From positions 15,989 to 58,810 of the forward strand of contig SUTQ01000012.1 in assembly GCA_015062805.1 (NCBI GenBank): a stretch of 42,822 bases of DNA, written 5' to 3'. Source of the stretch: Methanosphaera stadtmanae (GTDB lineage: Archaea > Methanobacteriota > Methanobacteria > Methanobacteriales > Methanobacteriaceae). This document shows positions 2,559 through 30,770 of the stretch, piece by piece. Both the position numbers and the translations under genes were made by a program. Below the pieces are notes generated by a model. The model was not told where the DNA came from, did not search any database, and saw only the letters and a program-made list of their open reading frames with translations. Numbering within the stretch: position 1 is the stretch's first letter; every line of letters begins with the position of its first letter.

Positions 2559-2606
2559 GCGTGTAAATAATTAAATTAAAATTATTAAAATAGGATGTGT
2601 GTACAA

Positions 2607-3440: not shown

Positions 3441-3451
3441 GTTCACTACTT

Positions 3452-3485
3452 AATGTAAGATAATTCCTATCTTACATTTTTTTTA
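3452..3485 (+). terminator. Hairpin/T-tract terminator of mtaBC
   Basis: A perfect 11-bp stem (3452-3462 with 3468-3478) and a 5-base loop run directly into a T tract ending near 3485, 12 bases after the mtaC stop. This resembles an intrinsic terminator. Confidence 0.8.
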
Positions 3486-3572
3486 ATTATTATATAAATA
3501 TCAATATCTTATACACAATATTGTTGAGTTTTTAGCGTGTTCTCAACTTTATTATTTTAAACATATTCGGAA

Positions 3573-3612
3573 ATAACTAGGTTTCCACTATGCCTAGTTA
3601 TCTTATTTTTTT
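3573..3612 (+). terminator. Second hairpin with T tract
   Basis: A perfect 9-bp stem (3573-3581 with 3593-3601), an 11-base loop, then CTTATTTTTTT. It lies about 130 bases after the mtaC stop. It may be a backup terminator or the 3' end of a short transcript starting after mtaC. A weak 6-bp hairpin also occurs at 3523-3547. Confidence 0.5.
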
Positions 3613-3692
3613 AAAACATTATATAACATTGTTATATTATGACTTGTTTTTTTATAACTTAAAATTTTTAAAATAAAAAAAAGGTAGAAAAA

Positions 3693-4151
3693 TTAGTTTG
3701 GAGAGTAGTTTGCAGGAATAACGAGAACAGGGACAGGTGCTTCTCTAATGATTTTTTCGGTAACACTTCCTAAAAGGAATCTGTCCACTTTGTTTTTACC
3801 ACTGTTACTCATTACAATCATGTCAATGTTTTCTTTTTTACAAACTTTGATAATTACATCACAAGGTCTACCCTGAAGTGCTAATTTTCTAATTTTGACT
3901 TTATATTGTTCTTCTTTTTCATCTTCAAGATCTTGAATAACTTTTTCAAAATGGTTTAAAACTTGATCGGTATAGTCCTTAAAGTTCGTTTCACCAATTG
4001 CATCTTCATGGATATTACTTAAGTGTTTATTATCAACTACATGTAAAACAATAACCTCTGCACCTTCATCTGAAGCAATTTGTAGGGCATGTTCAATTGC
4101 AAATTCAGAATTTTTTGATCCATCACTTGTAAGTAAAATTCTATTATACAT
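3693..4151 (-). CDS. Universal stress protein (UspA family)
   Basis: A 152-aa single-domain Usp fold, cytoplasmic. The N-terminal strand YNRILLTSDGS is followed by an amphipathic helix (AIEHALQIASDEGAEVIVLHV), and the C-terminal part contains SNSGKNKVDRFLLGSVTEKI, close to the nucleotide-binding pattern GxxGx9GS. The first glycine of that pattern is replaced by serine, so ATP binding is likely but not certain. An upstream in-frame ATG at 4163 would add four residues, but AGGAG lies within that stretch, 4 bases before the ATG ending at 4151, so the shorter start is chosen. The role is presumably stress or growth-arrest tolerance; the partner is unknown. The gene is convergent with mtaBC and is preceded by an AT-rich promoter region. 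Confidence 0.9.
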   Translation of the reverse strand: MYNRILLTSDGSKNSEFAIEHALQIASDEGAEVIVLHVVDNKHLSNIHEDAIGETNFKDYTDQVLNHFEKVIQDLEDEKEEQYKVKIRKLALQGRPCDVIIKVCKKENIDMIVMSNSGKNKVDRFLLGSVTEKIIREAPVPVLVIPANYSPN

Positions 4152-4266
4152 AAAACTCCTCATAGATAATTTTGTAATTAATTAAATATATGTTAAATTA
4201 ATGTATTAAATATTTGTAAGGATTATAAACAATTAAAATTTAGATATTATTATTTTTGTAATATCT

Positions 4267-4578
4267 TTATTCAAATTCTATCCTATGAGTAATACATTTA
4301 AACTTATTTCCAAAATTATCATCAATTGTCTGGTCTTTAATGAGATTGAAATATTTTAAGGTAGAGTTTGATAACTTTTGTCTTGATTCATAATTTATTA
4401 TATGAGAATTTATCTTATCTTCAATCAGTACATCGTAAATATCTTTTTTTGCAAAATAAGAAATACTGTAAATAAGATTATCAGATTCTAAAATAGTATG
4501 TTCAAAAAAAACTTTATTATCTTCATATAATTTTTTAATAAAGTTGGAATTTTCATTATTTTTTTCTATTTTTTTCAT
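4267..4578 (-). CDS. Small uncharacterised protein, paralogue of the gene at 6108-6452
   Basis: This 103-aa acidic/basic mixed protein has no signal peptide or membrane segment and no recognised domain. Its core aligns closely with the protein at 6108-6452: VFFEHTILESDNL against VLFEHTLLKTGEL, ISYFAKKDIYDVLIED against ICYFAPSNVYDIIIED, and INYESRQKL against ITYESKTEL, followed by a shared KYFNL/KLFNL segment and a KFKCITH/KYKCMSH ending. The alternating pattern of hydrophobic residues suggests a compact alpha/beta fold. The N-terminus is asparagine/lysine-rich and poorly conserved. No strong ribosome-binding site is seen before the ATG. The existence of a diverged paralogue 1.5 kb away supports it being a real gene. 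Confidence 0.75.
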   Translation of the reverse strand: MKKIEKNNENSNFIKKLYEDNKVFFEHTILESDNLIYSISYFAKKDIYDVLIEDKINSHIINYESRQKLSNSTLKYFNLIKDQTIDDNFGNKFKCITHRIEFE

Positions 4579-4728
4579 AAAATCATTTTTATTTCTTTTA
4601 CTTATGTTATATTCTTTAAAATATATAAAAATTATATTTAATTGGAATTTTTAGATAATGAGGCTTAACTAAAAAAAATATATTTTATATATTTACATTC
4701 AAATAAATTTAATTAATTAGGTGATAAA

Positions 4729-5586
4729 ATGATTCATTCAAATAAATGTATTAAATCATTAAATGAATTGTTAACTTATGAAAATTTAATTCTTATTGAA
4801 AATGCAAAATTCAATGTTAACGATTATCAGGAGATTTTGGCTGAGATACTTGCTGAAAGTTTGGAAAATCTTGTTTTGGATGAAAACATATCACCTTTAG
4901 AAAATGTCAAAAGAATTGCATTACAACACGTTAATATTTATTATGCTGAAAAAGAGATATCCTCTGGATACTATATTTACAATAAAATATATCTTAACAA
5001 CAATCTGCCTGAAGCATTGCAAATAGTTACATTGATTCATGAATTAACTCACCATATATATGCAGAAATATTTGAAAAATGGTTGTATAAATTATTTAAC
5101 ATACAAGGATGCAATATTGTTGAATCCGTGGTGATGTTCATGTTAAATAATTCCATTGAAAATAGGGTTGCAGATGAATATTTGTCTTACATTGTTGAAG
5201 GACGTTTTACACCACCAGAATGTCAAAATTATTTATCCTTCATTCAATTATTGCTTGAGTTGGGAATAGATGTTGAAACTTCCAAAGGATTTTTTATTTT
5301 TGCACATGAAATTAGTCATGATATTGATGATCTTCTAAAACCAATCATCAATAAACAACTACGATATAGTATATATGAACAATTTGTTAAGGATGATATT
5401 GCTAAGTTAAATCAAAAATTAACCTTTGATTATCGTGATGAAAGATTTAATAATATTGAAAAAGTTGAGATAATGCAGGAAATGCTTTACTTTATTTTTG
5501 ATTATTTTATTAATGGTGAAGGAAATCTAGAAGATCTGGAAAATTATATATCCGGATTTGATGAACAAATGTGTTTTACAGATTAA
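4729..5586 (+). CDS. Putative zinc metallopeptidase-like protein with two HExxH motifs
   Basis: A 285-aa cytoplasmic-looking protein with no signal peptide. Residues 101-110 read TLIHELTHHI, a classic HExxH zincin helix (H104, E105, H108). ENRVADEY at 144-151 could supply the third metal ligand, as in gluzincin-type enzymes. A second HExxH, AHEISHD, is at 192-198. The surrounding sequence is mostly helical and acidic. AGGTGAT upstream supports the ATG at 4729. I do not recognise the family; similar HExxH proteins act in toxin-antitoxin or phage-related regulation (for example ImmA/IrrE), but no helix-turn-helix partner is adjacent, so no role is assigned. The gene stands alone between the stress protein group and a tiny basic ORF. 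Confidence 0.8.
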   Translation: MIHSNKCIKSLNELLTYENLILIENAKFNVNDYQEILAEILAESLENLVLDENISPLENVKRIALQHVNIYYAEKEISSGYYIYNKIYLNNNLPEALQIVTLIHELTHHIYAEIFEKWLYKLFNIQGCNIVESVVMFMLNNSIENRVADEYLSYIVEGRFTPPECQNYLSFIQLLLELGIDVETSKGFFIFAHEISHDIDDLLKPIINKQLRYSIYEQFVKDDIAKLNQKLTFDYRDERFNNIEKVEIMQEMLYFIFDYFINGEGNLEDLENYISGFDEQMCFTD

Positions 5587-5762
5587 TTTGAAAAATTCAT
5601 TTTTTTTAGAAATTTTTCATTATATATCTAATTTTTTAACTATTTTTTAATAATTTCATAGATATATTTTTATTAATAAACAATGTTTAATTATATATTA
5701 TTAAAAACTTTAAATATATCTTATTACATATTATAATGTATCTAATGTTTAATGGTGTAATA

Positions 5763-5858
5763 ATGGCTAAGAAACAGGTTTTGAAAAGAAGATTTATTAA
5801 AAAAATGTTATTGACTAAATTCCATAAAAATGTTATTGAATTTGTTAAAAAAAAATAA
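5763..5858 (+). CDS. Small highly basic peptide, 31 aa
   Basis: The ATG at 5763 follows GGTG with good spacing (GGTGTAATAATG) and a TATA-like AT-rich stretch. The product starts MAKKQVLKRRFIKKMLLTKF and ends in KKK: about 40 percent lysine/arginine with hydrophobic residues between, predicted to form one amphipathic basic helix. It is too short for default gene callers. It could be a nucleic-acid-binding peptide or a membrane-active peptide; no family is recognised. Evidence is the ribosome-binding site, the start and the coherent composition, so it remains a candidate. Confidence 0.45.
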   Translation: MAKKQVLKRRFIKKMLLTKFHKNVIEFVKKK

Positions 5859-5900
5859 TACTAAAAAACTATTATTATTAAATTACATATAAACAGATAT

Positions 5901-5911
5901 CTTTATATATC
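5901..5911 (+). promoter_or_regulatory. TATA element of tRNA-Asn
   Basis: CTTTATATATC lies about 35 bases before the mature tRNA 5' end, consistent with an archaeal TATA box and a short 5' leader. Confidence 0.45.
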
Positions 5912-5942
5912 ATTAAATATAAATAAATTATTATACTTTAAT

Positions 5943-6015
<73 letters not shown>

Positions 6016-6107
6016 TAAAATCTTTTTTTTTAATTTTATCTATATAATATTATTTCTATTTTTTAAAAGTTTATTTACCCATTTTTTAAGATATTTCAGT
6101 GATAAAT

Positions 6108-6452
6108 ATGTTATATGAAGGAATTAAAGAGACACAAAATACTAGAATAGAAAAGGATGATGATACAAAATCCGAAATTGAAATGTTATATTCTTTCGGC
6201 GTAGTACTTTTTGAACATACTCTACTAAAAACGGGAGAATTAACAGTTAGTATCTGTTACTTTGCTCCTTCAAATGTTTATGATATAATAATTGAGGACA
6301 ACGTCAATCATAAGTTAATAACGTATGAATCCAAAACAGAGTTGGATGAAGAGTATATTAAATTATTTAATTTAACTAAAAATGAGGAAATAATTGATAA
6401 AAATAATCTGAAATATAAATGTATGAGTCATAGTGTAGAATATACATTGTAA
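6108..6452 (+). CDS. Small uncharacterised protein, paralogue of the gene at 4267-4578
   Basis: A 114-aa protein without signal peptide or membrane segment. Its central part matches the protein at 4267-4578 nearly residue for residue in the blocks VLFEHTLL, ICYFAPSNVYDIIIED, ITYESKTEL, KLFNLTK and KYKCMSH. The N-terminal 30 residues are charged and divergent. A GTG nine bases upstream is also in frame, but GTGAT reads better as the ribosome-binding site for the ATG at 6108, as elsewhere in this window. Function is unknown. It ends 26 bases from the stop of the convergent secreted-protein gene. Confidence 0.8.
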   Translation: MLYEGIKETQNTRIEKDDDTKSEIEMLYSFGVVLFEHTLLKTGELTVSICYFAPSNVYDIIIEDNVNHKLITYESKTELDEEYIKLFNLTKNEEIIDKNNLKYKCMSHSVEYTL

Positions 6453-6478
6453 AGAAGGTTATGGGGGAGAAAATCTCC

Positions 6479-8215
6479 TTAAATAATTTTTGCAATAACC
6501 GCATTAGAATTCTGACTGTTATATCTATAGTTACCACTGTAAGTTGCTGTAATTTTTGTATTTTTCATATATGATTCTGCAAGCAATTCAATTTTTGCTA
6601 TACCATTTACTACGCTAATTTTTAACGGATCTTTATTACTTAATTTCTTATCTATTCTGATGGTTTTACCATTTATTTTAAAGACAAGATTTCCCCTACT
6701 GATTAACCTATTGTTTTCATCTTTTAGTGTTGCCTGCAAAATTATTTTTTTACCAACTTGGGATACGATAGGACTAATTGTTATTATAGGAGTACTTTTT
6801 TTAAGAGTAACAGTCTTTTTAATAGTATTTAACAGTTTTCCATCATAATAATATATGGTATAAGTATCCTGATTTAAGGTAGGTACATTGAAATATGTCC
6901 AGCCCCAACCGTTTGTTTTTAATTTATATGTTTGGCCTTTGCTATCTTTAACAATTACATCTTTGTATTTTTCATATTGATTACTATTATTTTTAATTAT
7001 TATTTCAATACGACTAGAACCAATTTTATCTCCTACCTGTTTAAGATAAAATGTCACATTTTTAGGTATTTTCACATTAAAAACAGCACTGCTGGATTTG
7101 TGAGGTAAATTTTCCAGGTATTTTACTTTGAAAGATTGTAATCCTCCATTATTTGCATTAAATGTTGTACTAAACGAACCAGAGTATACTTTAACATTAC
7201 TTTTAAGTATCTTGTTGGAACTATCCACTATGTTTATTATTCCGTTGATGTTTTTTGCATAAGGACTTGTAACTGTTCCATAAACTGTAACCATATTATT
7301 ATTTACCGTGTATTTGCTAACTTTACAAACTGTGTCATGATTAAAAAGTTTCATAAATTCATTAACTGTTTTTGTACCTGTATAATCTGCGGATGATTTG
7401 TGGTTTTTTCTGTCACTGCTTGTACAAATGTATCTTATGTTGTTGTTGTCCATGTATTGTTTTGGATATGACATTGATTTTCCGGTTTCACTTCCTCTTA
7501 CGTATTTGTAACAGGTACCACCAGGATGTACACAATCACTGGCATCGTAGAACCAGGCAAGAACCACATCGTTTCCACGACTACGTACTATACGACCTCT
7601 GTTATCATTTCCGTTTTTTGCTACTTCACGTATATTTGACGGGTCTACTCCATTAAATAAGTGGAATAAAATTGCATTTTTTATTTTGTGATTATAAACA
7701 TATAACATATTGTTATACATTGAACTAGGACCAATGGAATACCTTGCAACTTTAAAACCATTTTTTTTCAACGTATTTACAATATTGTTACATATTGTTT
7801 TGTCTTTGTTACTGGTATGATCCATTGCAAAATAGATTGGTCTACTTTTGTCTAGTGGAATATCCATGGATAATGTGGCTGTTTTAGTATTTGAGTTATC
7901 TTTAGTAATTGTATTTTTTGTAATACTTTTGTTAGTAGTATTTTGTCTGCTAGTATTTTGTGTATCTTTTAAATCATTCGATTTTTCTTTTGTTAAATTA
8001 TTATTTGAATTAATATTTGCTTTGTTCTCATTTATGTTTTCAACATTTTTTGAGGTTTTTACATTTTGAACATCCGAGGGATAAGAAGTATCCTTATTGT
8101 TGGATGTTGTTGAATAGTTAGTAGTTATATTACTAGCACTAATGGTTGTAAAAGTAACTAATAATATTGTAAATGTAATAAACAAGAAAAAGACTTTTAA
8201 ATTATTCTTTTTCAT
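6479..8215 (-). CDS. Secreted protein: unassigned surface domain plus Ig-like domains
   Basis: 578 aa. Residues 1-28 form a signal peptide (KKNNLKVFFLFITF...TISAS). Residues 30-120 are a low-complexity Asn/Thr/Ser/Lys linker. Residues about 125-290 form a domain also found in the neighbour at 8636-9397, with conserved blocks RPIYFAMDH, ILFHLFNGVDPS, GNDNRGRIVR, GNDVVLAWFYD and CTSSD. The rest contains beta-rich, Ig-like modules; the last starts near TPIITISPIVSQVGKKI and ends ATYSGNYRYNSQ, like the adhesin repeats. The shared domain vaguely resembles the surface domain seen with pseudomurein-binding repeats in other methanogens, an inference from memory. It is probably wall-associated. Enzymatic activity cannot be assigned. 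Confidence 0.85.
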   Translation of the reverse strand: MKKNNLKVFFLFITFTILLVTFTTISASNITTNYSTTSNNKDTSYPSDVQNVKTSKNVENINENKANINSNNNLTKEKSNDLKDTQNTSRQNTTNKSITKNTITKDNSNTKTATLSMDIPLDKSRPIYFAMDHTSNKDKTICNNIVNTLKKNGFKVARYSIGPSSMYNNMLYVYNHKIKNAILFHLFNGVDPSNIREVAKNGNDNRGRIVRSRGNDVVLAWFYDASDCVHPGGTCYKYVRGSETGKSMSYPKQYMDNNNIRYICTSSDRKNHKSSADYTGTKTVNEFMKLFNHDTVCKVSKYTVNNNMVTVYGTVTSPYAKNINGIINIVDSSNKILKSNVKVYSGSFSTTFNANNGGLQSFKVKYLENLPHKSSSAVFNVKIPKNVTFYLKQVGDKIGSSRIEIIIKNNSNQYEKYKDVIVKDSKGQTYKLKTNGWGWTYFNVPTLNQDTYTIYYYDGKLLNTIKKTVTLKKSTPIITISPIVSQVGKKIILQATLKDENNRLISRGNLVFKINGKTIRIDKKLSNKDPLKISVVNGIAKIELLAESYMKNTKITATYSGNYRYNSQNSNAVIAKII

Positions 8216-8635
8216 AATTCACCTTTATTTTTTAATTTAAGACATTAATAACATTAGTTTTTACTAATATTTAAATTATTCCTTTTAAAATTGAAAAATA
8301 CCTATTTATAAAAGAAAAAAATCTTATTTTAATCATTTCGTTTTAAATATAAATTGTTAAAATTTAATGAAAATAATCATTATAATTTTTCTTCACTTTA
8401 GAAAAGATTAGACTTTCAATGTTAGAGATAGAAATTTGTTGAATTTCTAGTTGAAAGTTACTATGGAAATACTTTAAGTATTTTCAAAAATATTCAAAAT
8501 AAACTTCTTTAATTATTAAAGTTTTTTTATAAAAATATCATTACTTGTGTTTTATTTTTTAACGAGTGAATGTATGTTGATAAGTAAATATATTATATGG
8601 ATTTTTAAAAATAATAAAAATAAGGGGGGTTATTC
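8216..8635. other. Gene-free stretch between two paralogous secreted-protein genes
   Basis: No coding frame is apparent. It contains a structured segment at 8412-8458 and a small hairpin at 8467-8483; otherwise it is featureless AT-rich DNA that must also contain the promoter of the 578-aa gene near 8220-8290. Confidence 0.5.
8412..8458. other. Nested inverted repeat (possible structured RNA)
   Basis: ACTTTCAA (8412-8419) pairs with TTGAAAGT (8451-8458), enclosing AGAAATT/AATTTCT (8430-8436 with 8442-8448) with a 5-base loop. A further 7-bp hairpin follows at 8467-8483. No T tract follows directly on either strand, so this is not a clear terminator. Confidence 0.35.
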
Positions 8636-9397
8636 TCATTCATTGAATAATTCCATGAATTTTTCGACCGTTTTTTCTCCTGTGTAATCTGCTTCTTCCT
8701 TATGTTTTCCCATATCACTACTGGTACATATTGCTATAATACCATTTTCTTCCATATACTCTTTTGGATTTTCTAAACTTGGACCAGTTTCACTGCCATA
8801 TACGTGTGTTATACCAGAACCATTTTCGTTTACACAATCGACTGAATCGTAAAACCATGCTAAAACTACATCGTTTCCATTATTTCGAACTATACGTCCA
8901 CGGTTATCGTTTCCATTCGTTGCCAGTTCCCTGATTGTTGATGGATCTACACCATTGAACAGATGGAATATTATGGCATTTGATATGTTTTGTTCGTATA
9001 GATAATGTGTGTTCTGTGACATTTTATTAGGACCGATTTCTGCACTTACAACATTAAATCCTTCTTCTTTAAGTCTTTTTGTTATAGTGTCACATATTTC
9101 CTGATCATCAGCGTTTACGTGATCCATTGCAAAGTATATTGGCCTGGACTTATTTAGTTTTGATGAGTTATATTCTATATTATCTGTTCTTTCATCTTGG
9201 AATGAAAATAACGTTAAATTATTATCGTTATTTTTATATTTTGAATAGTTTTCTAATAGTGTATTAACAGTATTATTATATTGATGTTCTTGGTATGGTT
9301 CATTAAGATTATCATTGATTACTACTGAATTAATGCAGGGTAATGAAAATATCAAGAAAGTACAAGATAACATGAATATTATCTTTTTTGTATTCAT
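8636..9397 (-). CDS. Secreted protein with the same unassigned domain as the 578-aa neighbour
   Basis: 253 aa with an N-terminal signal peptide (MNTKKIIFMLSCTFLIFSLP), a spacer of about 60 residues, and one copy of the domain shared with the gene at 6479-8215. Conserved blocks are RPIYFAMDH, AIIFHLFNGVDPS, GNDNRGRIVR, GNDVVLAWFYD, YGSETGPS and CTSSD. It has no Ig-like tail, so the shared domain can stand alone. The two genes lie in tandem on the same strand, 420 bases apart, and presumably arose by duplication followed by gain or loss of the stalk. Several invariant Asp, His, Asn and Arg residues suggest a binding or catalytic site, but I do not recognise a named enzyme family. Confidence 0.85.
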   Translation of the reverse strand: MNTKKIIFMLSCTFLIFSLPCINSVVINDNLNEPYQEHQYNNTVNTLLENYSKYKNNDNNLTLFSFQDERTDNIEYNSSKLNKSRPIYFAMDHVNADDQEICDTITKRLKEEGFNVVSAEIGPNKMSQNTHYLYEQNISNAIIFHLFNGVDPSTIRELATNGNDNRGRIVRNNGNDVVLAWFYDSVDCVNENGSGITHVYGSETGPSLENPKEYMEENGIIAICTSSDMGKHKEEADYTGEKTVEKFMELFNE

Positions 9398-10115
9398 ATA
9401 AATAACCTAAATATTCGTTAGTAGTAATTTATTTAATTTAATTATTAAATCTTTTGTGTTTAAAAAAAGTAAAAGGAAGTGAAATGAATATTATTGAAGG
9501 ATAATTTTCTTTTAGGCATTTAACCAATTATATCTAAGTTTTTTTATGGGGATAATGATACGACTTAGAATAATTTATATATATTATAGGAATACATTTA
9601 ATATTATTAATTTGGAGATAGTAAAATTTCAAATTTATTGCTTTGATAAATTTGTTTTTAAATTAACTGGCTAACATATAATTCTTTAATTTTGGACTAA
9701 ATTATGGCTCTTGAATTATTATGTATGGAGAGTTCTTCTTTTTAAGGAAATTGAATAGGATAGTGTAGTATATTGTTTACCTATTATTCAGTCTAATGTT
9801 TTTCTATTCTATTATTGTTAAGCTTTTCCTGATTTATCCTTCAATATATTCATAGTTATTTATTAATAGTTAATAGGTAATTAGGATTTAAAGTGATTTA
9901 ATCTGTATTATAAAAACACAAATGTACATATAATGTACATATTAACGATTATATCTCATAGTATATAAATATATGTACAAAAAATAAACAAATTTGATTT
10001 GTTTATAATGTTGGTTTTCGGTAAAATGATTATGGTTGGTTAAAAATTCCAATGTAAAAATTTTAAAAAAATATTCAGAAATAAAAATTAGAAATTTGGG
10101 AGATTGAATATATAA
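9398..10115. other. Gene-free stretch with three TGTACA motifs
   Basis: No credible coding frame. TGTACA palindromes occur at 9923-9928, 9934-9939 and 9974-9979, the first two as ATGTACATATAATGTACAT. They resemble operator half-sites, but no intact gene is positioned to use them. The region borders two decayed genes and is probably degenerating DNA. Confidence 0.45.
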
Positions 10116-10567
10116 TCAATCATTTTCATAATTTAAAACTTTTATAACTAAATCAGTTATATCAACTACATTGTTGATGTTGTCTAAAACAAAATTTTTA
10201 AAATTTCCAAATTCAATTGGTACAGGGACAGTCCCCTTTTCCATAATACAACCATATAACCTTCGTCATTTCCTTTTTCGTTTTGATTTCACTTTAGTCA
10301 AGATCTTCATGGATTACATTTAAAGAATCTTCAAGAAGATTTTCAACATAATAAGGATTTATTTCTACGTTATCTGATAAGATTTCGTCACGACAAATAA
10401 TGTAATTCTTCTATATCTTGATGTGAATAATCCATTGACACCATTCTTCTCTTTAGTTTTTTTACTTTCAAAATATTCAACTACAAGATTTGTTCTGCCA
10501 TCAAACTTTAAAGTTTCGTATGGCATGTCTCCAATAAACCATCAAAACTAGGATTATTATTAACCAT
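10116..10567 (-). pseudogene. Decayed paralogue of the gene at 23361-23840
   Basis: The ATG ending at 10567 follows a good GTGAT site, but the frame breaks after about 12 residues and at least twice more. Pieces in different frames line up with the intact protein at 23361-23840: GDMPYETLKFDGRTNLVVEY (intact: FDNGSHAVIEY), LFTSRYRRITL (RFTAKFRKVTL), ILSDNVEINPYYV (VLSERIDLNPFYD), NVIHEDL (EVIHEGL), GYMVVLWKRG (SYLVVIWKKG) and VPVPIEFG (APLPVDLG). The order is preserved and the terminal TGA is at 10116-10118. It is a clear remnant of a second copy of that uncharacterised family. Confidence 0.75.
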
Positions 10568-10721
10568 AATATCACTTAAAAAAAATTTAAAAAAATAAAG
10601 TGGTGAGTAACATTAAAAAATGTTACTTTTGGGTAAGAATATCCGTCTATTTGAACTTTTTGGGAGACTATTGTATTTTAGATTATTTGGCGTTTAGTTT
10701 GACTGAAATTGTTTAATTTAT

Positions 10722-11859
10722 TTATGTTCTTGACCGTTTCTTAATGGTTGTCATATTATGTATATTAGCAACAGGAAGTATTATTTCATTATAGTCAGGT
10801 TTCCATGATAGGTCTGATTCGTTTTTTTCACGTTTATAGTCCATACCTTTTTCATAATATTCATCTCTGGTTTTTACCATGCATTCCATAGCCTTTAAAG
10901 GAGTTCCTGGTGGTACACAACATGATGAACCTAATATATCAATACCATTGTCCAGTGCTTTGAAGGTTTCTTCTCGGATACTGTCCATTTTAGCTTGGAA
11001 TAAGGAGTCTGTTGCAACATTACCAACTAATTGGGTATCGCTGTTAAAACCATATTTGATTTTATTTGCTTCCTTAACATTTACAGAATCTTCGAATGAA
11101 AAACCGTTATATCCTAAATTTAAGGTATGCTCTAAAATTGGAGTTGTATCTCCACATACATGTAACACCATATGAAATCTGCTGCTTTTGCAATTCTTTC
11201 CAATGGTGCTGTTACGAAATCATCAAACATTTCAGGAGGTAATAAATCTGCAGCAATTGATGGTTCGTACATACAATCTCCCTGAATATCTAATGTATTA
11301 TATGCTTTAACAACTTCTATTACTGCATCAGCACATAGTTCTACACCTTTTTTTACGTCTTCAGGGTTTGTAGCTAAACATCTCATTAAGTATTCAATTC
11401 CTACAATTTGTCCTAGTAAAGTGAAAGGACCAATCTGACCGGCTACCATGGGTACATCAGGATATTTTTCTCTACCTAATGCTATAGCTTCAGCTACTAC
11501 AGGTATACGACCGTTACTCAAGAAATCATCACAGAGATCCACACTTTCGATATCATCGAAAAAGGGGGATGCTATAATTTCTGGAATGTGTTCATTTGCG
11601 TCTCTAAGATCAACTTCACTCCCATTGCCTCAGCTTCTATAGCTAGATCAAATGGTAAATTAATACTTCCTACACCAGCATATTTGTGTGCACTTTCACC
11701 TAGTTCTAACATTTTTTCAGCATTAGTGTGTGATTCAGGAAAACCAGCACCTGTTATTTCCATACCTTCAACTAATGCAACTGAAACTATACTTGCTGCA
11801 GGGACTTTTTCAACTTCTTTTCCTGCAAATGCATTTTCCAAGTTTTCAATTAAATCCAT
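10722..11859 (-). pseudogene. mtaA-family (methylcobalamin:CoM methyltransferase) pseudogene, two frameshifts
   Basis: Three consecutive frames rebuild one protein of about 379 aa of the uroporphyrinogen-decarboxylase-like MtaA/MtbA family. Frame 1 (from the ATG ending at 11859) reads MDLIENLENAFAGKEVEKVP... up to AEAMGVK. A one-base loss near 11624 shifts to a frame reading EVDLRDANEHIPEIIASPF...GRIPVVAEAI, and a second near 11170 shifts to MVLHVCGDTTPILEH. The zinc-binding H-x-C and the later Cys (SSCCVPPGTPL) are still present. The breaks are not in homopolymers, so sequencing error is less likely. A C-terminal tail of about 37 residues is not found in the intact mtaA at 14281. It is more divergent than a recent copy and may have had a different methyl donor. 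Confidence 0.85.
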
Positions 11860-12280
11860 TTTAATTACCTTCTACAAATTTATATTGAATTTAACTGATT
11901 GGTTGCTATATTTTAATCTGCTATAATTAATCATGATATATAATATTTAATATTTTATAAAATTACCAGTTAAATTCAATTAATTAATTTATTTGATGCA
12001 GTATATAAAGGAATACTATTTTTAAAGGATAATTAATAATTTTTAAGTTAATTAAGAATTAAAATGATATTAATATTGAAAAAAGAGAAAAATATTAATG
12101 TTTTATAATATTTTGATTCAAAAATAATAATTCTAGTTTTTGTACAGGTCTTAATATGTTGAAATTATTGGTAATGTTTATTCATATTATAATCCATTAA
12201 AAAAATTATTTTATTTAGATGATATTTTATAATGGTGATAATTATTTATTGTATTTGTAATTTTTCAAAACAAAGATATA
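11860..12280. other. Gene-free stretch
   Basis: AT-rich DNA with no recognisable coding segment. I looked here for the missing N-terminal winged helix of the regulator domain at 12281 and found an in-frame stop at 12239-12241 and nothing resembling it. Confidence 0.5.
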
Positions 12281-12796
12281 ATGAATATATTACATAATTG
12301 GGATACAATATCCAAATATTCTAGATGCATAAATTATCATTCATTTAAAAAATTTCCATTAGAATTTGCAAGATATATGTTTATGCTTGATGAAAGTGAA
12401 AGAATTGAATCTCCAAGTACTGATATGTATAAAACAAGAAAATTATATGGTAAACAACTAAAAGAAGCAACAAATTTAAAGATTATATTGCCAATTTATT
12501 CACAACAGTATTTAAAGTACATTATTGCAACAGTTAAGGAAAATAATTCAAAAATTCAGATAATAACATCCAGAAACATTTATGAAGCTATTAAGGAATC
12601 AACTTTGGGCAATGACATAAAAAAATATCGTAATAATGGTAATATCAGAATATTTGTCACCGAAGAAGATGTTCATGAGATTTTCTTAACCATTACTGAT
12701 AAAGGTTCTTCAATATCCTTTTTCTATAAGGATGATACGTATGATGATACAACGTTTTTCTGGAAAGAAAAATTCAAATCTAAAAAAAAATGTTAA
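12281..12796 (+). CDS. FilR1-type regulator domain lacking the DNA-binding part (possible pseudogene)
   Basis: 171 aa resembling the C-terminal sensor half (FilR1/DUF1724-like) of methanogen transcription regulators. The segments NLKIILPIYSQQYLKYI, KIQIITSRNIYEAI, IRIFVTEEDVHEIF and SISFFYKDDTYDD follow the order and spacing of that domain. Full-length family members are around 260 residues with an N-terminal winged helix, which is absent. The reading frame is closed upstream at 12239-12241 and there is no ribosome-binding site before the ATG at 12281; a GGTGAT at 12234 is out of register with any in-frame start. Either the gene has lost its N-terminus or this is a remnant. The assignment is from memory of the family and is moderate. 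Confidence 0.5.
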   Translation: MNILHNWDTISKYSRCINYHSFKKFPLEFARYMFMLDESERIESPSTDMYKTRKLYGKQLKEATNLKIILPIYSQQYLKYIIATVKENNSKIQIITSRNIYEAIKESTLGNDIKKYRNNGNIRIFVTEEDVHEIFLTITDKGSSISFFYKDDTYDDTTFFWKEKFKSKKKC

Positions 12797-13194
12797 ATCA
12801 TTTCTTTGAAGCATACAAATATAAAATGTTATCAAAAGAAGTAATATAATTTTCATTTTTATTCATTTATTTTTTTTATTTTTTAATTAATTATATAATC
12901 AATAATTTAATAAGATTAGAATCTATATCCAAAATAATAAATCATTATTTCTAATTTTATTTAAGTTCATTTATTAATTATTTTTTTACAACTATGTTAT
13001 ATAGATGTGGTTTATTATATTTCTTAAAAATGTGTAAAATACATTAGTACAACAAAATTTATCATTAAAAGTATACAAATAACTAAAAAGGAAAAAGCAT
13101 AAGAGTTAATTAAAGTAAAATGATAATAAGTATGCTAAATTAATTTATGAGCTTTGATTAGTAAAATACATTAAAAAAAGAGAGATAATAAAAA
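12797..13194. other. Gene-free stretch
   Basis: Very AT-rich; nothing beyond short A/T tracts is seen. It lies between the 3' ends of two convergent genes. Confidence 0.5.
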
Positions 13195-13665
13195 TTAATC
13201 TAATTCATAAATTTTTTCTTTATAATCTTCTACAAAATATCTGATATTTTTTCTGCCTTTAAAAATAAAGGTATGTCCTTCTTTTTCAAGCATTTGTTTT
13301 TGGTACTCAATTCCTAATGGATATTTTGGATTTAATTCGCCCTCTGTTTTAAGAGTTCTCCAGAAGGGAATCTTATTGTTTTCTCTTTCATGGCTTGCCT
13401 GTGCAGCCAGATTGATGAATATTCCTGCCGTTAAGGGACATGTGAAGTCTGCACCATGCTTGTCTGCCAGGTATTCTCTTATTTGTTTAGTAGTGATAAT
13501 CTTTCCTTCAGGTACATTTGACATAATTTCATTATATTCCAATGGGGGTGCTATCAACATTTCACTGCCACCATATCGCGATATGCTTTTTTCATCTTTT
13601 ACGCATATGATTTTTGGCATATCCTTTGAATCGTTAAGTTTTTCATTGAATATTTTTCGAGCCAT
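13195..13665 (-). CDS. MGMT-like (alkyltransferase-like) DNA-binding protein
   Basis: 156 aa with the helix-turn-helix fold of the O6-methylguanine-DNA methyltransferase DNA-binding domain: NVPEGKIITTKQIREYLADK (50-69) and KIPFWRTLKTEGELN. In true MGMT the active site is PCHR; here the equivalent place reads FTCPLTAG with C76, so the protein is not a standard alkyltransferase. It matches a subgroup of 'MGMT family' proteins in anaerobes with the ADFTCPLT motif. It may recognise alkylated DNA and recruit repair, by analogy with ATL proteins; this is inference. The start is ATG with a TGAT-containing leader. It is single-domain and monocistronic. Confidence 0.8.
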   Translation of the reverse strand: MARKIFNEKLNDSKDMPKIICVKDEKSISRYGGSEMLIAPPLEYNEIMSNVPEGKIITTKQIREYLADKHGADFTCPLTAGIFINLAAQASHERENNKIPFWRTLKTEGELNPKYPLGIEYQKQMLEKEGHTFIFKGRKNIRYFVEDYKEKIYELD

Positions 13666-24322: not shown

Positions 24323-24766
24323 TTATTTATCATTTTTGTAAAAATTATTGATAATTGTGAGTAACTCTACATTAAAATCAATATTTTTATCATTATACCA
24401 TTTAAATAATTGTTTTATTCCTGTTCTAGCATATTCTTCACAAATTTTAAACATTTCGTCATGGTCAATTAATATATTTATATCATCAACTTCCATGATT
24501 GCTAAAGCTTTTAAGATTTGCATTTCATCTGTAGACGCATTATCAGCATATCGAAAATAAGTGTTTTGTTTTTCGATAGGTTTCCTTTCTTTAATAATAA
24601 ATTTTCCAATTAATGCTGCAATTGTAAACAAATGAATATTATTCTTAAAATAATTTGTATTAGTAGTTAAAGATTGATAATACTCATTAAATTCACTTTC
24701 ATCAACATTTATGGTAGTTCTATGGCTTTTTTTATAAATATTTATATCAGAATTTTTATTTAACAT
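24323..24766 (-). CDS. Small helical protein resembling Dnd system-associated protein 4
   Basis: 147 aa. The central part (NYFKNNIHLFTIAALIGKFI, ILKALAIMEVDDINIL, MFKICEEYARTGIKQL) resembles from memory the small proteins encoded beside DndD-like ATPases in DNA phosphorothioation clusters ('Dnd system-associated protein 4'). That family has a similar 'mlAa-lG...iAi...-EEYA-gGi--L' layout. The ATG overlaps the last codons of the DndD-like gene (AAATGTTAA), so the two are translationally coupled. It is the last gene of the minus-strand operon that begins at 28958. No enzymatic motif is visible, and it probably partners the ATPase. The similarity needs a profile search, so confidence in the family name is limited. 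Confidence 0.65.
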   Translation of the reverse strand: MLNKNSDINIYKKSHRTTINVDESEFNEYYQSLTTNTNYFKNNIHLFTIAALIGKFIIKERKPIEKQNTYFRYADNASTDEMQILKALAIMEVDDINILIDHDEMFKICEEYARTGIKQLFKWYNDKNIDFNVELLTIINNFYKNDK

Positions 24767-26718
24767 TTAATAACCCTCGTTTCACCATCATTTTCAGGAT
24801 CAACATCCAAAGTATATTTGTATCCTACATATTGATCAATTTTTTCCTTGAATTTACCATCATATTCACGATCAGTTACTAAAAATGTAATTTGTTTATT
24901 CTCTAAATAATCGGGTAAAATTTCAGCTAATTTTTCACCCATAGTTAAATCGGTTCTACCTATTGGAGAATCAATAATTAAAGGTAATTTAAATCCAGAT
25001 AACGAATTTAAAGCTATAACAAATGATAAAGCTAATACAAGTCGGGATGCTGCTGAAGGATCCGTGGCTGAAACAATTGAACCATCTGCTTTTAATAATG
25101 AAACATCAAAATCATCATCTATCTTAATTTCTTCATATGATTTTCTCCAATGAATTTTTTTAAATTCTTCAGAAGTTAAATGTTGTAATTGATCATGAAT
25201 GGAGTTTGCTAATTCAGTATATAAATCATCACAATGATTATATACTTCTGTACAGAAATCAATTTGTTTTCCAACGCGTGTTTTTTCTTCTTCTTTTTCT
25301 TCTTCCTCTTTAATTTGATTTTTTAAAGAATTAATTTTTGAAGGAATGTTTTTAATTCTATCTTTATATTTTCCATTTTCTTCAATTGCATTTCTAATTA
25401 ATATTTTATTTTCGTTGATTTTAGCATTATTGTCATTAATTAAATCTACATCCATACCTTCTAATTTAAGTTCAATTTCATTTAATTCAGCTTTGGAATA
25501 ATCAATTTTTGATTCTAATTTAACCATATTTGTTTCATAAGTTGAAACAACATTTCTAAATTTTTTTGGATATCTTTTTATAATATTTCTTGTAGTGGAT
25601 AACATTTGATTAACATCTTCAGAAATATTTGTTACCTTATCTGTTTTTTGAATTAATTCAACAATGTTATTATAACATTCAGAATTTTCTTTTAATTTAG
25701 TTCCACAAATACATTTGTTATCTTTTAATAAATATTCTAAAAATTCTTTTTTATAATCAGATGGGATATAACCTTTTTGTTCTAATTCAGAGCATAAATT
25801 ATTTAATTCAACTAGTAAAGGATTACCAACTATATAAGGAAACTTATTTACAATTTCTTTAGTATAATTATTTTTCTGTTCTTTCAAGTCATATTCTAAT
25901 TTTTCAATTTCATTTTCTATATTAATTTGTTTTTCAATTAATACTTTTGAATCATCACTATCATTTTTAATTTCATCAAATAGCCTTTCATTTTGTTCTT
26001 CGAGTTTAGATATAAATTTATTATTTTCTTCTATTTTTAAAGTTAAAGATTTTTTTAAATCTGTGTATCTGTTTAAATTTTCTTGATATTCACCTAATTT
26101 AGGATTTATATTTTTTTGTTCTGCTAATAAGTCTGCTAAAAATTTCTGTAAATGTAATTTCATATTTTCGATTAAATTTAATTGAGATAATTTAAATACG
26201 GCCTTTTTAACAGAATTAGAATCTTTTTTAAAAAATCCAACTAATTCTTCTCCATCAAAAAGGAAATGTTCACGAAGTTGTTTGGGTAAATGAGTATCTA
26301 GATAATCCATAGGATGAGAAACTTGTTTATCATTTAAGCCATCATCAATGAATATCTTAAAATCATCATGGCTTTCAGCAAATTCATTTTCATCTTTCTT
26401 TTGAAATTTTTGTTTTCTTATAAATCGAACGTCGTGATTATTATTATCAACCATTATTATTTCTACAGAAACTTCTAATGTATCATTAATACTTAATTCT
26501 TTCATTGCATTTTTATTACATTTCTTTTCTTTTCCTTTACTATCTTTATAGGTTTCTTCACCATATAAACACCAAGTAAAAGCATTCAATAGACTGGTTT
26601 TACCCACATCATTTTCACCAAGTATAATGGTAACATTATCTTTTCCATATGCAAAATCAAAATGAACATTATCTCGATAAGGTCTATAATTATTTAGATT
26701 TATAGATTTTAAAATCAT
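24760..26718 (-). CDS. DndD/SMC-like ATPase with CxC hook
   Basis: 652 aa, similar in layout to DndD and to Rad50/SMC-type repair ATPases. Residues 1-50 hold LKSINLNNYRPYRDNVHF and the Walker A GENDVGKT (34-41). A long charged coiled coil runs from about 185 to 500, interrupted near 336-339 by KCICGTKL, a CxCG turn that could dimerise via zinc. The ABC-type signature region DPSAASRLVLALSF is at about 552-565, and Walker B is LPLIIDSPIGRTD (577-589), close to the DndD pattern IDTPLGRLD. A CGTGAT site precedes the ATG. It sits in an operon with a PLD-helicase upstream and a small partner downstream. dndC and the other modification genes are absent here, so it may serve restriction rather than modification. 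Confidence 0.82.
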   Translation of the reverse strand: MILKSINLNNYRPYRDNVHFDFAYGKDNVTIILGENDVGKTSLLNAFTWCLYGEETYKDSKGKEKKCNKNAMKELSINDTLEVSVEIIMVDNNNHDVRFIRKQKFQKKDENEFAESHDDFKIFIDDGLNDKQVSHPMDYLDTHLPKQLREHFLFDGEELVGFFKKDSNSVKKAVFKLSQLNLIENMKLHLQKFLADLLAEQKNINPKLGEYQENLNRYTDLKKSLTLKIEENNKFISKLEEQNERLFDEIKNDSDDSKVLIEKQINIENEIEKLEYDLKEQKNNYTKEIVNKFPYIVGNPLLVELNNLCSELEQKGYIPSDYKKEFLEYLLKDNKCICGTKLKENSECYNNIVELIQKTDKVTNISEDVNQMLSTTRNIIKRYPKKFRNVVSTYETNMVKLESKIDYSKAELNEIELKLEGMDVDLINDNNAKINENKILIRNAIEENGKYKDRIKNIPSKINSLKNQIKEEEEKEEEKTRVGKQIDFCTEVYNHCDDLYTELANSIHDQLQHLTSEEFKKIHWRKSYEEIKIDDDFDVSLLKADGSIVSATDPSAASRLVLALSFVIALNSLSGFKLPLIIDSPIGRTDLTMGEKLAEILPDYLENKQITFLVTDREYDGKFKEKIDQYVGYKYTLDVDPENDGETRVIKC

Positions 26719-26727
26719 AATATCACG

Positions 26728-26898
26728 TTATATGTATTTGTTTACTAATTCTCTATATTTTGTCGAAAATTTTGGTTTAGATTGATTTCCAATTTGATAT
26801 TCAAAGTCTAAAACTTCCTTAACAAATTCCTTTTTATTTTCTTCAATGTCCATATTTTTAAGATGTTCCAAAATTTTATTGTTGATATTATCGTTCAA
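26728..26898 (-). CDS. 56-aa helical protein between the helicase and the DndD-like ATPase
   Basis: The frame starts at a TTG that overlaps the helicase stop (ATTGA), with GGTG seven bases upstream inside the helicase's last codons. It ends with TAA nine bases before the ATPase ATG. The product reads MNDNINNKILEHLKNMDIEE... and ends KFSTKYRELVNKYI, charged and helical. Its snug fit between two genes, with overlapping stop/start and a ribosome-binding site on each side, argues that it is real. It is short enough to be missed by gene callers. It is probably a small subunit of the complex; no family name can be given with confidence. Confidence 0.65.
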   Translation of the reverse strand: MNDNINNKILEHLKNMDIEENKKEFVKEVLDFEYQIGNQSKPKFSTKYRELVNKYI

Positions 26899-28958
26899 TC
26901 ATATACACCCCATTTTTCTAATTTTTTTATACAATCATATTTATTACTAGCATTTGAAATAAAATCATATAATCGTTTTATTTCATTTTTTATTAATCTA
27001 TTGAATTTTTCTTCTTTATTTGAAGGCAAAACTGTAAGATCATAAATTTTTGCTATTTTTTTGGATGGATGTCTACGTAAAACTCGTCCTCTTCTTTGTA
27101 TATATTCAATAGGATTGGTTGTACTAGACATAATAATTACTTTATCTGCCGAAGGTACATCAACTCCTTCATTTATACATTTTATTCCAACTAATGCTTT
27201 ATAATTTCCTTTATCGAACTCATTAAGTATTACTTCTCGTTCTGATAAACCATTATACTTTTTACTCGGTGTTGCATTTTCTTTTTGTGTTAATCTATGC
27301 CTTGGAGAAAAACCATTTGCTGATAGAATTTTTAAAACTTTATTTAACTGTTGAGGTGAACAAAAAACAATTAAATGTTCTTTATCTTCTATTTCATTTA
27401 ATATATTAATAAAAATAGAAAATTTATTTTTTGCATTATTAATTATATTTTGTCGTTGCCTTTTGAATTTATCTGCTTTGATGTGATCTTCTTCTTTTTT
27501 AGAATTCATATACATACCAATTAATTGTGTAAGGTATGAATAATCTTCAATTTCATCTTTTGTTAAATGAACATTATATGGAAAATATTCATATGGAGTT
27601 AAAAAGGGTTCATTTGTAATTGGATTAATAGTATTTAAAGCATCAAATATATTGAATTTAAAAATATTGTTATTGAAATATGATAATAATAATTCTGTAC
27701 CTTCATAATCCATAAATCTAGAAGGTGTGGCACTTAATCCTAATCGATAATTATATTCATCTAATAATCCGTTTCTTTGATTTTCAGAACCAATATGATG
27801 CATTTCATCTATAATACATAATTTTTTTATATTAGCTTTTTTTATTTCATTAATAAATTTTTCATTTGCAAATGTTGAATGTGTTGTGAAAATAACATTA
27901 GGTTTATTAAAAGGAATATTATAATTTATTCTAATTATCAATTTTTTCAAATCATTATACCATTTTTTATTAGCACTACTAAATATTAAATACGATTTTC
28001 CAATTCCCATTTCTTTAAAATCTTTTTCCCATTGTAAAGAAATATGTGCTTGAGGTGTAGCAATGATAGTTAAAACGTCTTCTTCATTTACTAATTTTTC
28101 CATACTTTTCAAGGCAGTAAATGTTTTACCAGTTCCTGTTGCCATTTCAAAAATACCTATTTTTGAATTATTAAACCAGAAATTTATTGCATCTTTTTGA
28201 TGTTGAAATAAAATCCTTTGTTCTTTTTTAGTATCTGTTTTTATTTTTTTAAGTATTAATTTATCTAAATCATCGAATTTTTCAGGTGCTTTTTTAATTA
28301 ATTGTTTTTTGGATGCTTCAGGAATTTCAAATACTTCTAATTTATCATTTTTACCCTCCCAATAATTTTCAAAATCAGTTAAATCTTCTACCATAAATTT
28401 ATAATCTTTCCAACTTTTAAAAACTTTTAAAGATTCGATATTATTCTTCCATCCACCCGCTGTTTCATTTACAGAACCATCAAATGTAATTATTTGACCT
28501 TCATCATCGTACATTATTCCTATTTTTGAATGTAATATACCAGAATTGGAATAACCATTTTTAGTCTTTTTAACACCAATTTTAATTTCTAGTAGTTCAT
28601 TAGCAACCATCCAACCTAATAATTTTACGTGATTATCAATAATTTCATTTTTAATATTTTCTAAATCTATTAAAAATTTTTTATTAATAAAATCTTTTAA
28701 TTCATTAGAATTTTTTATTGCATTTAAATCTTCTTCATTAAAACTAGTTCCACATAAAAGACGCATTTTTCCATTATTTTTAATGAAATTTAAAATTCCA
28801 CTAGCAGCAATTGCTAAACTAGTAGAATTAAAGTAACCTGTAATGCGATCATAATAAGTAGAATGTGATAACACAATATTATAAAAATCTTCAACAAGGT
28901 CTTCATTTGTTGATTTATAAGTAGATTTTATAGAATTATCAATATTTCTAAAGGACAT
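26895..28958 (-). CDS. PLD-family nuclease fused to SF2 helicase
   Basis: 687 aa. The N-terminal 210 residues are a phospholipase-D-like nuclease domain: GYFNSTSLAIAASGI near 41-55, HSKIGIMYDD at 143-152 (the HxK catalytic pair) and GSVNET at 161-166. With only one HxK motif it would work as a dimer. Residues 245-640 are a superfamily 2 helicase: FQHQKDAI (Q-like), EMATGTGKT Walker A (271-279), DEMHH (384-388), LSATPSR (409-415), EGVDVPSAD and the arginine-finger motif QRRGRVLRR (621-629). GGGGAG precedes the ATG. The same domain order is annotated in other genomes as 'DNA phosphorothioation system restriction enzyme'. It is the first gene of a compact four-gene operon and most likely degrades foreign DNA in an ATP-driven way. 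Confidence 0.88.
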   Translation of the reverse strand: MSFRNIDNSIKSTYKSTNEDLVEDFYNIVLSHSTYYDRITGYFNSTSLAIAASGILNFIKNNGKMRLLCGTSFNEEDLNAIKNSNELKDFINKKFLIDLENIKNEIIDNHVKLLGWMVANELLEIKIGVKKTKNGYSNSGILHSKIGIMYDDEGQIITFDGSVNETAGGWKNNIESLKVFKSWKDYKFMVEDLTDFENYWEGKNDKLEVFEIPEASKKQLIKKAPEKFDDLDKLILKKIKTDTKKEQRILFQHQKDAINFWFNNSKIGIFEMATGTGKTFTALKSMEKLVNEEDVLTIIATPQAHISLQWEKDFKEMGIGKSYLIFSSANKKWYNDLKKLIIRINYNIPFNKPNVIFTTHSTFANEKFINEIKKANIKKLCIIDEMHHIGSENQRNGLLDEYNYRLGLSATPSRFMDYEGTELLLSYFNNNIFKFNIFDALNTINPITNEPFLTPYEYFPYNVHLTKDEIEDYSYLTQLIGMYMNSKKEEDHIKADKFKRQRQNIINNAKNKFSIFINILNEIEDKEHLIVFCSPQQLNKVLKILSANGFSPRHRLTQKENATPSKKYNGLSEREVILNEFDKGNYKALVGIKCINEGVDVPSADKVIIMSSTTNPIEYIQRRGRVLRRHPSKKIAKIYDLTVLPSNKEEKFNRLIKNEIKRLYDFISNASNKYDCIKKLEKWGVYD

Positions 28959-29504
28959 TAATTACTCCCCGAATATTTTAATTAATTTTAGATCTAATTA
29001 TTATAAGATATATATATTACTAACTAGGTAATTTAAGAATTGGGCATATGTTTTTAAAAAAATATACTAAGTAATATAATAAATAAAATGTTAAATGAAA
29101 AATAAACAATTTTTTATCAGAATTAAAAAGATTTTTATAATATAAAATTTTGAAAATATGAAAAAAAATAGTATTATCTATAATTATAGAATTAAATAAG
29201 TGAAAATACTTTTAAGAATTTTTTATGAATTTCTATAGTATGAAGATAAAAAGGATCTAAAATAATATTTAAGAACTAAAAAATTTTTTGAAATAATAAA
29301 TTTTCAACTAGGTATTTATATTATAATCTAATTATATATAATATGTGAATTAAATAATATATATTTATTTTAATGATCATTTATAAACAATATTTAATAA
29401 TATTATTTATCAATATTATTTTTTATAGATATCTAGAAAATTATTACTTATATTAATAATAAAATAATGAATTATAATTATTAATAATATTTTGAGGAAT
29501 ATAA
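28959..29504. other. Intergenic region between divergent operons
   Basis: 546 bases of extremely AT-rich DNA with many TATA-like stretches. It must carry the promoters of the PLD-helicase operon (leftward) and the radical SAM gene (rightward). No ORF, RNA gene or clear repeat is seen. Confidence 0.45.
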
Positions 29505-30770
29505 ATGAGATTTATGGATTGGATAACTAGTGATATACATAAAGTATTGCTAGTTGAACCTAATTTTCCTATACCTATTAAGAGTAGAAATCATTCAAAT
29601 TTTTTACCTATAGGTCTTTTAAAAATAGCTGCTTATTTACGTAGTAAATCCATTGAAGTAAAATTAATTAGACATGATAGTTTAGATATTCATCAACAAA
29701 CATTAGATAATTCATTAGATAATTCAATTGATTTTATTCCGGACTTAATATGTGTTACATCAATATTTACATATTGGTCTATCTATGTAAAAGATGCGGT
29801 AACTTATTATAAAAAATTATTTCCAAATACTCCAATAATTGTAGGTGGGGTGTATGCATCTTTATTACCTCAACATTGTTTAGAATATACAAAATGTGAT
29901 GATGTAATTACAGGAATATTACCTGAAGCAGAAAAACTAAAACCTGCATATGATTTGGTTGATGTTGATTATCAAATTTTACATACAACTCGTGGTTGCA
30001 TTCGTAAATGTGGTTTTTGTGGAGTTTATGTTGTTGAACCAGATTGGTTATATAAGAAAACCATTAAGGATGAAATTTTTAAAAAGAAGATTGTTTTTTA
30101 TGATAATAATCTATTGGCTAATCCTGCTATTGATAATATATTAGATGAATTAATCGAGTTAAAAAAAGAAAAAACAATTACATACGTTGAATCTCAAAGT
30201 GGTTTTGATGGACGATTATTAATTAATAATCCAGAATATGCTAAAAAGATGAAAGAAGCTGGTTTTAAAAATCCTAAAATTGCTTGGGATCATCACTATT
30301 CTGATGCAGATTTTATCCATGAACAATTAAATATTTTATTTGATGTTGGTTTTAAACCTAGGGAAATCTCTGTTTTCATGATTTATAATTTCGATATTGA
30401 TTATAATGAAATGGAGGATAAACGTGTTAAATGTTTTGAATGGGGAGTTCAAATAACTGATTGTAGGTTTAGACCTTTAGATAAAACTGATGATGGTTAT
30501 AATCCTAGAAAACGAAAACAATCTAAAAAAGAATATCATATTAATCCTAATTGGACTGATGAAGAAGTTCGTGCATTTAGGCGTAATGTTCGTAGACATA
30601 ATATTTGTATAAGGATGGATGCAGATTATCATAGTTCTAAATTAGAAAGAAAACAAATTCCTCAAGATAAAGCTAAAGAGTATAGGTATATGAACTATGA
30701 AGAAGTAAAAGATCTTTTAGATGATGTTTGGACTCCAAAGATTCCACATTATATAAAAAAAGAAATTTAG
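29505..30770 (+). CDS. B12-binding-type radical SAM protein
   Basis: 421 aa. Residues 10-150 form a cobalamin-binding-like Rossmann domain (KVLLVEPNFP, PIGLLKIAAYLRSK, DLICVTSIFTYWS, PIIVGGVYASLLP). The usual DxHxxG is not evident, so cobalamin may bind base-off or not at all. The radical SAM core follows with TRGCIRKCGFCG giving C165, C169 and C172 for the 4Fe-4S cluster and SAM. The glycine-rich and SAM-contact strands that follow (VFYDNNLLANP, PKIAWDH) fit the fold. The last 80 residues are basic. The substrate is unknown; B12-type radical SAM enzymes often methylate unreactive carbons or modify tRNA, lipids or natural products. It is divergent from the Dnd-like operon, so a link is only suggested by position. 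GAGG precedes the ATG. Confidence 0.82.
   Translation: MRFMDWITSDIHKVLLVEPNFPIPIKSRNHSNFLPIGLLKIAAYLRSKSIEVKLIRHDSLDIHQQTLDNSLDNSIDFIPDLICVTSIFTYWSIYVKDAVTYYKKLFPNTPIIVGGVYASLLPQHCLEYTKCDDVITGILPEAEKLKPAYDLVDVDYQILHTTRGCIRKCGFCGVYVVEPDWLYKKTIKDEIFKKKIVFYDNNLLANPAIDNILDELIELKKEKTITYVESQSGFDGRLLINNPEYAKKMKEAGFKNPKIAWDHHYSDADFIHEQLNILFDVGFKPREISVFMIYNFDIDYNEMEDKRVKCFEWGVQITDCRFRPLDKTDDGYNPRKRKQSKKEYHINPNWTDEEVRAFRRNVRRHNICIRMDADYHSSKLERKQIPQDKAKEYRYMNYEEVKDLLDDVWTPKIPHYIKKEI

Follow-up and report, generated by a model that had tools for sequence, protein, structure and literature searches.

In a 42,822-nucleotide stretch of the Methanosphaera stadtmanae genome (GenBank assembly GCA_015062805.1, contig SUTQ01000012.1, positions 15,989 to 58,810; hereafter the window), we analyzed a compact four-gene operon, pbeABCD, and a neighboring gene encoding a B12-binding/radical S-adenosylmethionine (SAM) protein, hereafter rSAM. 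The operon occupies positions 24323-28958 of the minus strand, and its tightly packed open reading frames (ORFs) are separated by a single 9-nt gap or overlap by 4 and 7 nt, which confirms the overlapping or near-touching stops and starts noted in a preliminary description of this DNA. The first gene, pbeA (26895-28958, 687 aa, ATG start), encodes an HKD/PLD-type nuclease domain fused to an SF2 helicase. Its stop overlaps by 4 nt with pbeB (26728-26898, 56 aa, TTG start), which is followed after the 9-nt gap by pbeC (24760-26718, 652 aa, ATG start), encoding a CxC-type ABC ATPase, and, with a 7-nt overlap, by pbeD (24323-24766, 147 aa, ATG start), encoding a DndE-like protein. The rSAM gene, which encodes a candidate DNA-modification enzyme of 421 aa, lies on the plus strand (29505-30770), divergent from pbeA and 547 bp away. 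An AT-rich intergenic region (28959-29504) separates the two divergent units and probably holds both promoters; a sigma-70-type promoter scan, which does not model archaeal promoters, performed no better than on shuffled sequences.

The preliminary description regarded the four genes as a Dnd-like defense operon. Our searches identify them as a PbeABCD antiviral module rather than an unnamed Dnd variant, a conclusion that follows from the PADLOC matches of PbeA and PbeC, the domain content, the CxC motif and the PbeD model. PbeA matched its PADLOC profile with an E-value of 2e-210 and contains the Pfam domains ResIII, Helicase_C and, as a weak match, PLDc_2; its HxK..GSxN, DExH and QxxGRxxR motifs are kept in relatives, and a match to NCBIfam dnd_restrict_1 fell below the cut-off. 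PbeC matched PADLOC PbeC (E 2.2e-140) and Pfam AAA_23, as well as the profile of DndD-like ABC ATPases (TIGR03185, E 1.6e-45, below the cut-off). Its Walker A motif is GENDVGKT, and it carries KCICG, an instance of the CxC motif, the defining feature of the CxC ABC-ATPase clade (PMC10853773). PbeD is dnd_assoc_4-like (TIGR04062, E 1.8e-10, below the cut-off), and its AlphaFold2 model (predicted local distance difference test, pLDDT, 88.5) consists of two strand-helix-helix units for which Foldseek retrieved DndE structures (4lrv, 7x4e and 5wtu), with DndE entries filling the top six ranks, albeit at poor E-values (0.7 and worse). The 56-aa ORF is real, since almost every relative has a PbeB homologue in the equivalent slot, flanked by pbeA and pbeC. 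The operon thus has every PbeABCD component in the order A-B-C-D; linked DndCDEA phosphorothioation genes are absent, but they are not required for the family, in which solitary PbeAC have already been described. The earlier assignments of the individual proteins therefore stand, as do the relationship to Dnd and the lack of linkage to phosphorothioation genes, but the description was incomplete in that it missed a named system (PbeABCD, or CxC-ABC ATPase system) known since 2019. It also overlooked the rSAM gene and a pair of additional full quartets outside the window.

PbeABCD and DndCDEA together block a haloarchaeal virus (Xiong et al., 2019, PMC6459918). Because the characterized PbeABCD has no activity unless its modification partner is present (PMC6459918), a partner is to be expected for the window quartet as well. 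The DndCDEA-PbeABCD system of Haloterrigena jeotgali A29 (PMC6459918) resembles the window in its four families, their order and their sizes, with a PLD-ResIII-helicase PbeA in both and with PbeB and PbeD of 66 and 152 aa. Whereas that strain has DndCDEA, however, the window has the B12/radical-SAM gene beside the operon instead. In the same study, 42% of PbeAC were linked to DndCDEA and 165 of 553 were called solitary; the authors proposed that solitary PbeABCD copies work with DNA marks of other kinds, and raised the question of whether such copies lack activity or rely on a different mark (PMC6459918). The CxC ABC ATPase-DndE systems (Rakesh et al., 2024, PMC10853773) likewise combine an HKD and SF2 helicase protein, a small protein, a Cys-x-Cys ATPase and a cognate DndE, and non-phosphorothioate partners have already been inferred for them. 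Those partners are cytosine-5/N4 methylases, whereas a B12/radical-SAM partner, as in the window, is not mentioned there.

We searched the whole 2.1-Mb assembly, which is 99.9% complete, for modification genes. DndC and DndB were not found, and the only DndA-family cysteine desulfurase match was below the cut-off, in agreement with the earlier statement that sulfur-modification genes are lacking from the window; no D12 DNA methyltransferase scored above the cut-off either. A DndABCDE phosphorothioation system is thus missing its DndC PP-loop sulfurtransferase, and, because the genome has neither DndC nor DndB, the window quartet does not appear to be phosphorothioate-linked. The preliminary description had considered reliance on a modification locus elsewhere in the genome. 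Although the cysteine desulfurase would fit phosphorothioate marks of such origin, we regard this explanation as extremely improbable, given the absence of DndC here and its presence above the cut-off in only one of 139 family genomes, a genome outside the set of 37 that have PbeA at 1e-60.

The genome has just two rSAM copies, both at Pbe loci, and no more than four of its genes, these two included, scored above the cut-off for a B12-binding domain. While the window lies on contig C37, the second copy, 58% identical to the first, is found on contig C13 (locus L006; L numbers denote the loci compared) between two further complete pbeABCD quartets arranged in tandem (2284-6941 and 8743-13330). 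The PbeC of the first of these sets has a canonical ABC signature (LSDGEK), whereas those of the second set and of the window are degenerate (PSSGAQ, DPSAAS).

The association of rSAM with Pbe extends well beyond this genome. Among the 139 family genomes, PbeA was present in 37, rSAM in 25 and both in 23 (Fisher p 1.3e-14), and for 25 of the 28 family rSAM genes a Pbe gene is no more than 1.8 kb away. The exceptions are L077, where rSAM is at the end of a contig and the Pbe genes of that genome run up to the end of a different one; L093, also at a contig end, with a D12 gene as neighbor; and L094, a DISARM-type locus. A scan across 84,980 species yielded 39 rSAM loci, with relatives mostly in Methanobrevibacter and other Methanobacteriaceae, as well as in distant archaea and bacteria. 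In Stahlbacteria (L135), an unclassified bacterium (L142), Phycisphaerae (L148) and Nanoarchaeota (L152), pbeABCD is directly followed by rSAM in one row, an arrangement also seen in a truncated locus of a Lokiarchaeota metagenome-assembled genome (L154). Extending the scan to the phylum brought in 13 more genomes but no further rSAM, none was detected in a viral contig collection, and tblastn against plasmids and phages returned distant relatives only. These include proteins 23-25% identical to rSAM on rhizobial, Novosphingobium and Roseomonas plasmids (L160, L162, L159), in cassettes of DGQHR-domain, radical-SAM and ATP-binding proteins, and a homologue with 32% identity encoded by Marinitoga camini virus 1 (L161, 5992-7074).

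Pbe loci without rSAM usually have a gene of about 315 aa adjoining pbeA or pbeD, which encodes a D12-class N6-adenine DNA methyltransferase (PF02086, E 1.6e-60). We classified the complete Pbe loci by hand, counting a partner only if it was close to the quartet (D12 genes 4-6 kb off at L078 and L115 were left out): 15 had rSAM only, 10 had D12 only, two had both and two had neither (p 3e-4). On the PbeC tree, the D12/rSAM label has to change at least three times, and the D12 clades are nested at separate places among rSAM ones; the partner has thus been swapped more than once. The rSAM proteins are far more conserved than PbeC (mean pairwise identity 58% versus 29%). Because rSAM holds the position of the DNA methyltransferase of sister loci, a candidate modification gene of different chemistry is linked to the window quartet, and the earlier view that the operon is without modification genes is probably wrong. 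It had also been proposed that the quartet is a stand-alone system that recognizes foreign DNA in another way. On this view it would act directly, with no modification partner, or else be inactive. The lack of dnd modification genes in the genome and the many PbeAC called solitary in the literature (PMC6459918) are compatible with this proposal, but comparison of neighborhoods revealed that, while the quartet itself recurs, nearly all complete family Pbe loci have rSAM or a D12 methyltransferase alongside. Together with the dependence of the characterized PbeABCD on modification (PMC6459918), this makes stand-alone action improbable.

The rSAM protein matched PF02310 (E 6.8e-12) and PF04055 (E 8.6e-6); its Radical_SAM Pfam score is slightly below the cut-off, whereas that of the second copy is above it. 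A B12-binding domain and a CxxxCxxC radical-SAM core, the hallmarks of cobalamin-dependent radical-SAM methylases, are both present. The CxxxCxxC motif was found in 49 of 49 rSAM relatives, which also share a further invariant cysteine (C320) and many charged residues. No chain was matched in a PDB sequence-profile search with rSAM. Its AlphaFold2 model (pLDDT 91), however, resembles the cobalamin radical-SAM methylases TsrM, CysS and TokK (E 5e-12 to 4e-8), which have the same N-terminal B12-binding domain and radical-SAM barrel with CxxxCxxC but are only 11-14% identical to rSAM and have small molecules as their known substrates. By predicted fold, rSAM is thus a candidate cobalamin-dependent radical-SAM methylase.

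Outside Pbe loci, rSAM relatives adjoin other restriction-like modules. DISARM-like DrmE, DrmC, DrmB and DrmA are encoded beside rSAM at L131, L134 and L094. By comparison with class 2 DISARM (DrmMII-DrmE-DrmA-DrmB-DrmC), the rSAM relatives of L131 and L134 adjoin Drm genes where the DrmM methylase is expected, and no DrmM-type methylase was detected at these two loci or at L094 in the stretch covered (L131 up to DrmA); the window itself is Pbe, not DISARM. L094 additionally encodes a C5 methylase with a MutH-like nuclease. Next to the DISARM-like genes and rSAM of L094, L186 (genome G100, contig C24) contains a PbeC-like ORF (7866-9848) and a PbeD-like ORF (7390-7869), and the two may form a hybrid DISARM/Pbe locus. 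At nine loci (L137, L138, L140, L141, L145, L147, L149, L151 and L153), rSAM belongs to a three-gene cassette with a GHKL ATPase related to type II restriction enzymes and a protein of about 330 aa, and L152 has the GHKL pair lined up with pbeABCD-rSAM in a single row. ParB_N proteins are encoded at five loci, and rSAM is accompanied by DndB-like proteins at L155 and L156. A motif search found another DNA methyltransferase-like gene within 8 kb at few non-family rSAM loci, namely just beside rSAM at L137 and L140 and more than 6 kb off at L135 and L142. In our literature search, radical SAM and B12 were nowhere associated with Pbe or DISARM, although an earlier mention is possible, for example in a 2020 ABC-ATPase classification paper.

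This variety of neighbors bears on two alternatives. One is that rSAM is an unrelated defense or metabolic gene traveling with restriction modules as a passenger of defense islands, as its occurrence beside DISARM, GHKL, ParB and DndB genes and the presence of other defense-like genes at Pbe loci could indicate. We consider this unlikely, since rSAM directly follows pbeD in several distant phyla, nearly complements D12, has an invariant active site and occurs in this genome in only two copies, both at Pbe loci. The other is that DNA is not the target: rSAM could instead synthesize, in the manner of viperins, an antiviral small molecule or a modified nucleotide, or it could act on one of the Pbe proteins. 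Viperins are radical-SAM defense enzymes, and the structural relatives of rSAM modify small molecules; viperins, however, are not known to have a B12-binding domain, and both the swapping of rSAM with a DNA methyltransferase at Pbe loci and its position beside DISARM and restriction-modification-like modules with no methyltransferase near fit a DNA mark better. This alternative is accordingly rather unlikely, if somewhat less so than the passenger scenario.

The simplest account of the linkage, the complementarity with a DNA methyltransferase and the reuse by other restriction modules is that rSAM is a modification enzyme. We therefore think it probable that rSAM is a radical-SAM DNA-modification enzyme that partners PbeABCD, the two together forming a restriction-modification-like system, which makes rSAM a candidate for the missing partner of "solitary" PbeABCD. 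With a [4Fe-4S] cluster, SAM and a corrinoid, rSAM would mark host DNA, and, because the nearest folds are methylases, the mark would most likely be a methyl group on a chemically unreactive position. The PbeC-PbeD pair, an ABC ATPase and a DndE-like protein, would scan DNA and, with PbeB, license the PbeA helicase/HKD protein to block invading DNA without the mark, by analogy with haloarchaeal PbeABCD, which blocks DNA lacking the DndCDEA mark.

Several observations weigh against a modification partnership. In the window, rSAM is outside the pbeABCD operon and in the opposite orientation. Both partners are present at L083 and at L105, which has two PbeCD sets, and probably in genome G056, while L089 and L091 have neither. 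The divergence of rSAM is weakly correlated with that of PbeC (Mantel r 0.21; 15 of 5000 permutations), as is expected of a modular enzyme. Gene proximity in defense islands can come from hitchhiking, and the Pbe and rSAM loci are not phylogenetically independent. Lastly, DNA is a presumed substrate, whereas the structural relatives act on small molecules.

Additional genes were noted at Pbe loci. Five loci (L076, L101, L103, L105 and L107) combine a complete pbeABCD with an additional pbeBCD set that lacks pbeA, an arrangement reminiscent of paired ATPase modules for modification and restriction. A cluster of highly variable proteins, represented in 28 loci (e.g., L006:753-2123, L104:2167-3927 and L117:12578-17146) and often adjoining Pbe, is possibly an extra recognition or regulatory factor; DpnI_C, DUF7226 and TFIIB repeats were matched by its longest member. 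A second PLD-helicase gene of about 960-990 aa occurs near Pbe at L074, L079, L081, L083, L085, L105, L106, L108 and L113, with DUF3427 in the member scanned (L105), often beside a small gene from a cluster whose scanned member (L107) is a NUDIX protein. At L114 (7728-11550), pbeA is in two pieces, interrupted by a 486-aa ORF on the opposite strand, probably through insertion of a mobile element.

Whereas the PbeABCD quartet, solitary PbeAC and cytosine methylase partners were already known, the rSAM partner candidate appears to be new, and it offers a concrete candidate for the PbeAC loci that have no known modification partner (PMC6459918). On balance, we lean slightly toward the broader view that this cobalamin-dependent radical-SAM family forms a new enzyme class that modifies DNA to mark it as self and can trade places with DNA methyltransferases or Dnd in several restriction modules (PbeABCD, DISARM, GHKL-ATPase restriction-modification-like and ParB/DndB cassettes), producing a mark of chemistry not yet described. 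If our reading is true, the recurrence of rSAM beside DISARM and other restriction-like modules would point to a general enzyme that modifies DNA by radical chemistry, and its mark might escape routine methylation surveys.
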